From an uncultured Bacilli bacterium (GTDB taxonomy: Bacteria > Bacillota_I > Bacilli_A > RF39 > UBA660), in contig CALVQT010000002.1 of the NCBI GenBank assembly GCA_944358375.1, positions 133,044-197,043 of the forward strand: a stretch of DNA of 64,000 bases. The letters run 5' to 3'. How positions within the stretch are numbered: position 1 is the stretch's first letter; every line of letters begins with the position of its first letter. Below the pieces are notes generated by a model that made no database searches, was not told the origin of the DNA, and worked only from the letters and a program-made list of their open reading frames with translations. Positions 6,331 to 9,606 of the stretch are shown here, one piece after another. The position numbers were made by a program, and so were the translations under genes.

Positions 6331-6596
6331 ATTAAATTATATTTCAATATTTGATAATTATTCTTTATATTTTATTAACATATTTTTAATGTAAAGCGAA
6401 CAAATAAAAATAAAAAATTAAAAATTCCCATAAATAAAAGGATAAATGTTTTTAATTGCCGAAATTTCAAAAAAAGTGTTTACATATAAATTCTTTTTTT
6501 AAAAAAAATGAAACAAAAAACATTTACATTTAATCTAAAATATATTAATATGTAATTAAGTTAGAAAAATACTAACATATGAAAGGTGAGGTAAAT

Positions 6597-8870
6597 ATGG
6601 ATAAAGATTTTTTTGACAATATTGTAGTTGTAAAACGAAGCGGTCAAAGAGTAGGTTTTAATGATACTAAAGTAGCACTAACTATTAAAAAAGGTTTTGA
6701 TAGTGTTTATGATGAGTATGATGAGAAACAAGTAAATAAAGTTAAAGAAAAAGTTCTTGAGTATATTACTAAAGAATATAAGGGTAGAAAAACTATTGGA
6801 GTAGAAGATGTTAGTGATGCAATAGAAATTATTTTACAAAAAATGAAGTATAATGATGTATATGAATCTTTTAAAGGATATAGAGAAAGAAGAGCTGCAT
6901 CAAGAGAAGCATTTGTTGTTAAACAACAACATAAATTTGTTAAAGCTATAGAGTCTTTAGGATTAAAAACATCTATTGAGGAAAATAGTAAAAGAGAAAA
7001 TGCTAATGTTGATGGAGATGGGCCAATGGGAACTATGTTACATTTTGGTTCAACTGTTTCAAGAGAATTTGCAAAAGCTTATTTAATGGATAATAAATAT
7101 GGTAAAGCCCATGATGAAGGAGTAATACATATACATGACTTAGATTTTTGGGCTATGGGAACAACAACATGTACTCAAATAGATTTAAACAAATTATTTA
7201 AAGAAGGGTTTTCAACGGGGCATGGTTTTCTTAGAACTCCAAATAGTATTTCAAGTTATACGGCTTTAGCTGCAATTGCAATTCAAGCAAATCAAAATGA
7301 GCAACATGGTGGGCAGAGTATTCCTGCATTTGATTATTACATGGCACCTGGAGTTTTAAAAACATTTAAAAAAGAATTTAAACAAGCATTGCATGATTTA
7401 CTTGATTTCGAAGGATTTTTAAATCTTGTTAATTTTGAAAAAATAGAAGAAATTATAAATAAATTAAATAGTATTGAGTTTGATATGAATTTATTTGTAG
7501 ATTTTACATCTAAGAGTGATAAACTAAAATCAATATTTAATGAAGCATATAAAATAGCTTATAATAAGACAGATAGAAGTACATATCAAGCTATGGAAGC
7601 ATTTATTCATAATTTAAATACAATGCATTCAAGAGCAGGTGCTCAAGTTCCATTTAGTAGTGTTAATTTTGGTACTGATACATCAGTTGAAGGAAGATTG
7701 GTAATAAAAAATTATTTGCTTGCTACTGATGCTGGTCTTGGTCATCAAGAGACACCAATATTTCCAATATCAATATTTAAAGTAAAAGAAGGAATAAATT
7801 ATAATAAAGAAGATCCAAATTATGATTTATTTAGATTAGCATGTAGAGTCTCAGCTAAGAGGTTATTTCCAAATTTCTCATTCTTAGATGCCACGTTTAA
7901 TAAAAAATTTTTAGTAGAAGGGGATTATAATACTGAAGTCGGTTATATGGGATGCAGAACAAGAGTTCTTGCTAATGTATGTGGCCCAGCTATTACACCT
8001 GGACGTGGAAATTTAAGTTTTACTACTATAAATTTACCAAGAATAGGTATTAAACATGGTATCGCATTAGGAGAAAGAAAGAAAGCTGATATGGATGGTT
8101 TCTATAAAGAACTTGATGAAGTATTAGAATTAGTAAAAGGTGAATTGCTACAAAGATTTGAATATCAATGCTCTAAGTCAAGAAATAATTTTAAATTCTT
8201 ATTTGGTTCACATGTTTGGATAAATAGTGAAAAAATGGATAATACTACTAAGCTTAGAACTGTATTAAAACATGGAACATTATCAATAGGGTTTATTGGT
8301 CTTGCAGAAACATTAAAAGCGTTAATTGGAGAGCATCATGGTGAGAGTGATAAAGCTCAAAGATTAGGTATAGAAATTATTAAACATATAAGAGAAAAGT
8401 GTGATAAATATACCGAAGAATATAATTTAAACTTTACTTGCCTTGCAACTCCTGCTGAGGGATTAAGCGGAAGATTTGTAGCTATGGATAGAAGTATATA
8501 TGGAAAGATTAAAGGCATTACAGATAGAGAATATTATACTAATTCATTTCATGTTCCAGTGTATTATAAAACTAGTGTAAAACATAAAATGGAAATTGAA
8601 GGAAAATATCATGAATTTACAAATGCGGGACATATTTCTTATATAGAACTTGATGGAGATACTGTTAATAATGTAGATGCATTTGAAACTGTAATTAGAA
8701 TTATGCATGATTGTAATATAGGGTATGGTGCTATTAATCATCCTGTAGATAGAGATCCGGTTTGTGGATATGTTGGAGTTATTAAAGATGTTTGCCCTAG
8801 GTGCGGAAGACGAGAGGGTGAAGGTGTAGAAATGGAAAAAATCAATTCTTATGATTGTTGTAAATATTAA
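6597..8870 (+). CDS. nrdD: Anaerobic ribonucleoside-triphosphate reductase, large part lacking the glycyl-radical tail
   Basis: Class III ribonucleotide reductase that makes dNTPs without oxygen. The start at 6597 follows the ribosome site aaaggtgag; the ATG at 6579 lies before that site. The 757-residue product has an N-terminal ATP-cone (about 1-95) and the glycyl-radical-enzyme barrel (for example HIHDLDFWAMGTTTCTQ and VNFGTDTS). It ends with a Cys-rich zinc-site-like region (VCGYVGV, CPRCGRREG, then CCKY). The usual C-terminal glycyl-radical segment (RxxTGYLVG...DRVKHG) is missing here. It is encoded by the next small frame, which is in register after a TAA stop and eight codons. Operon with nrdG. 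Confidence 0.95.
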   Translation: MDKDFFDNIVVVKRSGQRVGFNDTKVALTIKKGFDSVYDEYDEKQVNKVKEKVLEYITKEYKGRKTIGVEDVSDAIEIILQKMKYNDVYESFKGYRERRAASREAFVVKQQHKFVKAIESLGLKTSIEENSKRENANVDGDGPMGTMLHFGSTVSREFAKAYLMDNKYGKAHDEGVIHIHDLDFWAMGTTTCTQIDLNKLFKEGFSTGHGFLRTPNSISSYTALAAIAIQANQNEQHGGQSIPAFDYYMAPGVLKTFKKEFKQALHDLLDFEGFLNLVNFEKIEEIINKLNSIEFDMNLFVDFTSKSDKLKSIFNEAYKIAYNKTDRSTYQAMEAFIHNLNTMHSRAGAQVPFSSVNFGTDTSVEGRLVIKNYLLATDAGLGHQETPIFPISIFKVKEGINYNKEDPNYDLFRLACRVSAKRLFPNFSFLDATFNKKFLVEGDYNTEVGYMGCRTRVLANVCGPAITPGRGNLSFTTINLPRIGIKHGIALGERKKADMDGFYKELDEVLELVKGELLQRFEYQCSKSRNNFKFLFGSHVWINSEKMDNTTKLRTVLKHGTLSIGFIGLAETLKALIGEHHGESDKAQRLGIEIIKHIREKCDKYTEEYNLNFTCLATPAEGLSGRFVAMDRSIYGKIKGITDREYYTNSFHVPVYYKTSVKHKMEIEGKYHEFTNAGHISYIELDGDTVNNVDAFETVIRIMHDCNIGYGAINHPVDRDPVCGYVGVIKDVCPRCGRREGEGVEMEKINSYDCCKY

Positions 8871-8894
8871 ATATTTTTAGAAAGAGGTGATATT

Positions 8895-9050
8895 ATGGAA
8901 AAAGAAATTAAAAAAGCAAAATTAGTAGGTGAAGGAGTAGGCTTTGATAGAATAAGAAGAATTACTGGATATTTAGTTGGAACATTAGATAGATTTAACA
9001 ATGCTAAGAGATCTGAAGTAGAAGATAGAGTTACACATGGAACAAAATAA
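8895..9050 (+). CDS. Separate glycyl-radical domain of NrdD (51 aa)
   Basis: Small frame with a strong ribosome site (aaagaggtgat at 8881-8890) and ATG at 8895. The product reads MEKEIKKAKLVGEGVGFDRI, then RRITGYLVGTLDRFNNAKRS, then EVEDRVTHGTK. From VGFDRI onward it matches the C-terminal glycyl-radical end of class III NrdD, including the radical glycine in TGYLVG. It is in the same frame as nrdD, separated by one TAA and eight sense codons. It could therefore be an independent subunit docking on NrdD, a read-through product, or the relic of a nonsense mutation. The good ribosome site favours separate translation. Its last 14 bases overlap nrdG. Confidence 0.9.
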   Translation: MEKEIKKAKLVGEGVGFDRIRRITGYLVGTLDRFNNAKRSEVEDRVTHGTK

Positions 9051-9606
9051 GAAATACATTCGTTTAGCTGCAGACCTTCAATCAGATAGTATTGTAGATG
9101 GTCCAGGATTAAGAGCGGTTATATGGACACAAGGGTGTGCTCATAATTGTAAAGGATGTCAAAATCCGACTACTCATGATTTTAAAGGTGGGGCTTTAGT
9201 TGATATAAATTTAGTAAAAGAATCTATTGATGAATTAGAATATCATACTGGTATCACATTTAGCGGTGGAGATCCAATGTATCAACCAGAAGCTTGTAAT
9301 GAACTAGCGGTTTATGCTAAAAGTAAGGGGTATAATATTTGGGTATATACAGGATTTACTTTTGAAGAATTAATTAAAATGTCATTGAAACAACCAATAT
9401 ATAGAGAATTTTTAGATAATATTGATGTACTAGTAGATGGTAAATTTGTCCTTGAACAAAGAAATTTAAATTTATTATTTAGAGGATCTTCAAATCAAAG
9501 ATTGATTGATGTTGCTAAATCTTTAAATAAAGGACAAGTTGTTTTAGTAAATGAATATGAATATAATGAAGAAAAACAATTTGAAAAGGTACCTATGTAT
9601 ATTTGA
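9037..9606 (+). CDS. nrdG: Anaerobic ribonucleotide reductase activating protein (radical SAM)
   Basis: Generates the glycyl radical on NrdD using S-adenosylmethionine and a [4Fe-4S] cluster. The 189-residue product has the cluster motif CAHNCKGC (Cys34, Cys38, Cys41; CX3CX2C), the GPGLRAVIWTQGC lead-in, and the SGGDP motif near residue 75. Length is slightly above the common 155-175. The start codon lies inside the end of the small glycyl-radical frame (14-nt overlap), implying translational coupling, which fits its job of acting on exactly that peptide. A terminator follows. Confidence 0.96.
   Translation: MEQNKKYIRLAADLQSDSIVDGPGLRAVIWTQGCAHNCKGCQNPTTHDFKGGALVDINLVKESIDELEYHTGITFSGGDPMYQPEACNELAVYAKSKGYNIWVYTGFTFEELIKMSLKQPIYREFLDNIDVLVDGKFVLEQRNLNLLFRGSSNQRLIDVAKSLNKGQVVLVNEYEYNEEKQFEKVPMYI

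Follow-up and report, generated by a model that had tools for sequence, protein, structure and literature searches.

In a group of uncultured gut bacteria the anaerobic ribonucleotide reductase (RNR) is encoded as two pieces. The locus that we analysed lies in a 64,000-nucleotide stretch of DNA (the window). It encodes an NrdD large subunit without the loop that carries the radical glycine, a separate 51-aa protein that consists of this loop, and the activase NrdG. We consider it very probable that this is a class III RNR in which the glycyl-radical loop has become a separate subunit that would dock into the large one. The features of the locus are as follows.

6597..8870, + strand: nrdD large subunit, 757 aa (ATP-cone, barrel and zinc-type cysteines; without radical-glycine loop), matching PF13597 1-531 and NF005497 4-714
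7953..7955, + strand: Cys453 (MGCR), probable radical cysteine, invariant in a 48-row alignment
8811..8867, + strand: C-terminal tail of the large subunit, a hinge copy (GEGVEMEKI) and then cysteines, recognized from the tail pattern across split NrdDs
8868..8870, + strand: in-frame TAA stop of nrdD
8884..8891, + strand: ribosome binding site GAGGTGAT of the small gene, read from the sequence
8895..9050, + strand: 51-aa radical-segment protein (detached C-terminal loop, glycyl-radical domain), matching PF13597 533-562 and NF005497 711-745
8967..8969, + strand: Gly25 of the small protein (TGYL), probable radical glycine
9037..9606, + strand: nrdG activase, matching TIGR02491 (148.7 bits; cut-off 126.1)

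The first-pass annotation had described an nrdD that ends in TAA past its zinc-type cysteines, followed eight codons beyond this stop, still in the nrdD frame, by a 51-residue ORF with its own ribosome site that encodes the radical segment and is overlapped by nrdG. Re-reading of the bases bears this out base for base. The small gene starts at the ATG at 8895, after a 24-nt gap, and nrdG overlaps its end by 14 bases. There is no clear ribosome site 5' of nrdG, so nrdG is likely translationally coupled to the small gene. The first in-frame ATG of nrdD is at 6579, although the ATG at 6597 is the likelier start because a ribosome site lies just 5' of it. The ATP-cone of NrdD scores slightly below the PF03477 cut-off (24.8 against 25.8 bits), and the closest solved structure is that of P. 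copri NrdD (8p23). Cys453 is taken to be the radical cysteine by homology with T4 NrdD, and the catalytic role of the NrdD cysteines is likewise assumed. Gly25 is presumably the radical glycine by homology with E. coli and T4 NrdD.

The two ORFs match complementary parts of one family (PF13597 1-531 and 533-562; NF005497 4-714 and 711-745). By itself the small ORF matches NF005497 with an E value of 2.2e-11, and thus is not a chance frame. The large subunit has the family profile and catalytic cysteines of a class III RNR, with NrdG adjoining, but the radical-glycine loop is absent from the C-terminus of the NrdD chain. As this loop is on a separate ORF, we conclude that the enzyme is a split variant of class III RNR.

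Genome contigs scanned with the large subunit yielded 169 relatives, and the analysis covered the best 80. The split is present in 77 of the 80, so that with the window 78 of 81 records have a separate downstream ORF encoding the radical segment. Of the remaining three, two (L008 and L061) include the nrdD end and have no radical ORF in the available DNA; in the third (L042) the nrdD end was not found. All 78 small ORFs have an ATG start and an SD-like sequence. They begin 1-54 nt from the nrdD stop and encode proteins of 49-67 aa. The 51-aa protein is on record for 11 contigs, and the catalytic cysteines and the HPVDRDPVC-CPxC region are retained in split NrdDs. Where database names are given for such proteins, they are hypothetical protein or anaerobic ribonucleoside-triphosphate reductase. 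Near relatives are therefore not fused enzymes beside a lone stop in this genome, a possibility that the first-pass annotation had raised, although more distant Bacilli mostly are fused. In a sample of 149 genomes from the wider class, fused NrdD is commoner, with about 6 split among at least 107 genomes with a match, among the matches listed. For the window and its nearest relative (L001, 89% identity), dN and dS are 0.061 and 0.78 for the large gene and 0.052 and 0.63 for the small gene, a ratio of about 0.08 in each case. Both halves are under strong purifying selection.

The two genes do not correspond to a fused NrdD severed at a single site. The tail of the large subunit comprises 16-24 residues, with a hinge (EGV, two residues, E, K or R, I) and then cysteines at the end. 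The hinge pattern was found in 80 of 80 readable tails, and 79 of them have at least one cysteine among their 14 C-terminal residues (the exception is L071). In fused enzymes the radical loop follows on from this hinge. A second copy is present in the small protein, as GEGVxF[D/E]RIRR in 75 of 78 cases by a strict pattern and with GQGV in the other three. The presence of the hinge in both halves suggests, as the simplest history, that the split probably originated by a 3' duplication that produced a free loop, with later loss of the built-in loop. In fused relatives, cysteine occurs in 0 of 24 linkers between the zinc site and the radical loop. The cysteine-rich tail (8811-8867 in the window) is a candidate zinc ligand, redox pair or docking element. 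We rejected a loss of the first zinc cysteine linked to the split, as 23 of 24 fused relatives also lack this residue.

Two trees were constructed, one with FastTree from 111 rows (six duplicate loci were left out beforehand) and a smaller one from 35 hand-picked rows, 23 of them split. Split NrdDs form one well-supported group that has four fused NrdDs inside it (L093, L095, L106 and L110). Forcing the 23 split rows together in the 35-row tree cost 46.8 log units (p-AU 0.054), which neither rejects nor establishes a single clean origin. Given the fused NrdDs inside the split group, refusion or repeated splitting probably also occurred.

Oxygen cleaves glycyl-radical enzymes at the glycine that bears the radical. 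If the loop is a separate subunit, NrdG would load the radical onto the small protein, either free or loosely bound. The glycine loop of the small protein would then enter the barrel beside Cys453, and catalysis would run as in NrdD. A detached loop would require no tether, whereas in a fused NrdD the radical domain has to swing out to NrdG and return. Once cut by oxygen, the small protein might be swapped for a fresh 51-aa copy while the large subunit is not remade, a step that we propose tentatively. The flipping of the radical domain from the core to NrdG, and its return, are described for known NrdDs in the accessible part of PMC12662201. High mobility of this domain in P. copri NrdD is described in part of PMC11226230, and cleavage of the peptide chain of glycyl-radical enzymes by oxygen in part of PMC4390871. 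When the read-through product was modelled with AlphaFold2, pLDDT values were below 50 over residues 743-798, which include much of the small protein. The model superposes on P. copri NrdD up to residue 815, the radical segment being of low confidence. In one of its two readings the first-pass annotation had placed the radical glycine on a dockable subunit; the separate subunit gene is supported by our data, and the docking itself we infer.

The alternative that survives best is that the split is neutral. The two chains would pair tightly and permanently and act as an ordinary NrdD, and their separation would be functionless, a product of constructive neutral evolution. The low dN/dS of both genes is equally expected in this case, and the four fused NrdDs within the split group imply that both forms appear viable. 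A use for a free loop is hinted at, however, by the long persistence of the arrangement and by the detached NrdD loops, described below, that occur elsewhere in Bacilli (three of them beside desulfoferrodoxin genes) and on phage contigs. We regard a neutral split as a serious contender that falls somewhat short of probable.

Far less probable is read-through, in which the TAA is decoded as an amino acid to give a fused NrdD. The ORFs in the window do share a frame with a single stop between them, and in 34 of the 78 records the small ORF continues the nrdD frame. It is shifted by one in 25 and by two in 19, however, so that 44 of 78 are out of frame and the frame is not conserved across the stop. 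The gap in L001 contains a second in-frame stop, and the ATG and SD-like sequence present at every small ORF also argue against read-through. Because the frames are mixed, neither read-through nor a fixed frameshift can be the general mechanism, and the real split that the first-pass annotation had preferred is upheld. Local mutation or frameshifting is rejected by the same mixture of frames. A decaying gene or assembly error at the window locus might be suspected given that fused NrdD is the usual form in the wider class, but it can practically be dismissed, as the stop falls at the same point in 78 records, often out of frame, dN/dS is low for both parts, and the 51-aa protein occurs on 11 contigs.

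Other identities for the locus were also considered. An nrdD interrupted by an intron or intein is rejected, as the gap is only 24 nt (and 1-54 nt across the 78 records) and Rfam returned no match at the gathering score within the window. A split class II RNR (NrdJab) is rejected because the large subunit matches PF13597 and not PF02867 (Pfam, E 0.001). The small protein is not GrcA/YfiD, as Pfam and NCBIfam match it to NrdD families only (E 0.001).

We searched 50 of the 77 split genomes for other RNRs. The large subunit of class I and II enzymes (PF02867) was matched in none of these 50 draft genomes, compared with 11 of 14 control genomes, and PF13597 was matched in all 50. In 29 of the 50 no RNR other than the split enzyme was found (the table was counted by eye), and the other 21 have a second, fused NrdD. 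Each separately listed radical segment in this table (profile end 562) adjoins split nrdD, and no additional detached copy of the loop was seen in it. As completeness values are lacking, the absence of another RNR is weak for any single draft genome, and it is stronger across the 50. An extra part of the GrcA type is rejected, as the adjacent NrdD lacks a loop and no other NrdD was found in those 29 draft genomes.

Detached NrdD-type loops also occur in other Bacilli. In a sample of 392 genomes from the phylum there are 77 matches to the 51-aa protein; six genomes have the short split form and 14 have a separate frame of 92-124 aa. This longer form (about 90-100 aa) combines an N-terminal half of its own with an NrdD-type radical loop, and is encoded away from nrdD. 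Over both samples it was found in 16 genomes (loci L113-L119 and L163-L171, with L171 known solely from its match). In related Bacilli the protein of about 90 aa coexists with a complete NrdD. We consider the proteins of 90-100 aa to be candidate spare parts for NrdD. Among 41 genomes of one family, 22 encode an NrdD of the RITGYL type (21 by direct reading, and the loop-less one described below). The small protein was found in 19 of these 22 and in none of the other 19, counted by eye and leaving out a 72-aa frame in G327 (Fisher p 8e-9, with relatives that are not independent).

A desulfoferrodoxin gene lies directly 5' of the longer form at three of the 16 loci (L116, L117 and L119); these calls fall below the cut-off of the full-length model and above that of the iron-domain model. 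S-ribosylhomocysteine lyase adjoins the longer form at three others (L113, L164 and L170). At two loci a regulator-like ORF (L117:186-896 and L119:2644-3312) is divergent from the pair of desulfoferrodoxin and radical-loop genes, and that of L119 has weak matches to Fnr/Crp-type models, below the cut-offs. In a fold model of the protein of about 90 aa, the N-terminal half is confident (block pLDDT 82-90, residues 1-60) and the radical half is poor. Foldseek with this model gave no match at E 0.001 or better, and its top rows include a weak likeness to ribosome-hibernation factors.

One of these genomes (G037, locus L120) has a loop-less NrdD that is 100% identical to proteins named Thomasclavelia spiroformis. 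It ends in EHHGLERIPRINLESE, where relatives have EHHGFERIRRITGYLVG and then continue. An nrdG-like ORF is immediately 3', and there is no radical loop in the neighbourhood. The same loop-less end, at the hinge, occurs in 120 of 120 proteins among the matches listed (P0241-P0360; mostly 96-100% identity, lowest 95%). Thus, the loss of the loop is fixed in T. spiroformis and does not stem from faulty sequencing. A single detached NrdD-type loop was found in G037, in a 92-aa protein encoded more than 1 Mb from the loop-less nrdD. The genome also carries a second, complete NrdD of another kind. If the loop-less NrdD is functional, it would work in trans. We count this loop-less NrdD with its remote loop as a parallel case in favour of a two-subunit enzyme at the window locus.

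Free-standing radical loops are also present on viral contigs. Two scans of IMG/VR, with detached forms as queries, gave 350 and 151 relatives, and the best 80 of each comprise 156 distinct loci (L200-L355). Among the matches listed, 101 loci have the longer form, 49 the short form, five a fused or long form and one a zinc-site fragment. A free-standing NrdD-type loop is thus encoded at 150 of the 156 listed loci, a count to be read with the facts that detached queries favour detached forms and that some loci share a contig. For 50 loci picked by hand, mostly on longer contigs, an NrdD body was seen in six records and not seen in 44, some of which may be fragments; four of the records in which it was not seen are 200-252 kb long. 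Genes at L223, L280, L281 and L287 match phage endolysin or tail families. In L280, L318 and the record of L325, which are phage-like contigs, NrdD is loop-less and other genes separate it from a short radical ORF about 2 kb beyond it. Of 50,697 records of annotated phage genomes, 14 match the 51-aa protein; the longer phage form is matched by 7, and some of these matches are fused nrdD. As such matches are rare, the phage side rests on the metagenomic IMG/VR contigs. One of the 14 is Eggerthella phage EL753P1 (L356), whose NrdD lacks a radical loop and carries an intein-like insert at the radical-cysteine motif; the small radical ORF downstream of it is interrupted in the deposited record.

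It is possible, although we would not yet favour it, that the NrdD radical segment is exchangeable in general. One group of Bacilli would have it as a subunit that is permanent yet replaceable, others as a spare of about 90 aa for NrdD cut by oxygen (for the loop-less NrdD of one species this would be the sole detached source), and phages would supply it to the NrdD of their hosts. Validated spare parts are described only for pyruvate formate-lyase in the accessible part of PMC8683613, where replaceable radical parts in other enzymes are put as a possibility. Searches of the open-access literature turned up no account of the NrdD radical segment as a detached part. The loci make the question of replaceable radical parts directly testable for an enzyme that supplies DNA precursors, with natural two-chain enzymes, a named species with a loop-less NrdD and a remote loop, and phage-borne versions as test material.

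Relative to known class III RNR, a split NrdD with a detached radical loop is new, and we hypothesize that the loop is exchanged. The window enzyme shares with known NrdD/NrdG systems (P. copri 8p23, phage T4 1h78 and the S. thermophilus 9d3x series) the family profile, the catalytic cysteines, the zinc-type site, the loop motif and an adjoining nrdG. It differs in that the loop is on a separate 51-aa chain and not at the C-terminus of NrdD. Splits of other kinds are known. In the split class II RNR NrdJa/NrdJb the barrel and the C-terminal part are likewise on two chains, but, as described in part of PMC9669993, it is a cobalamin enzyme without a glycyl radical and its detached part carries other domains. 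Phage nrdD genes split by introns, inteins or endonucleases likewise occupy more than one ORF, mostly owing to intervening elements according to the available text of PMC3653736, whereas the window has a 24-nt gap, no insert and an arrangement conserved in bacterial chromosomes. GrcA/YfiD and T4 Y06I, the spare parts of pyruvate formate-lyase, are likewise small, free proteins with a glycyl-radical loop, thought to dock into a large enzyme (PMC8683613, in the part accessible). The likeness to GrcA/YfiD drawn in the first-pass annotation is apt as an idea, but GrcA supplements a complete enzyme. The window loop is of the NrdD type, and because the large subunit lacks one, the small protein is a regular subunit and not a spare. 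The proteins of about 90 aa in related Bacilli are closer to GrcA in role. Phages of anaerobes that supply a loop to host NrdD during infection would parallel T4, with its Y06I for pyruvate formate-lyase.
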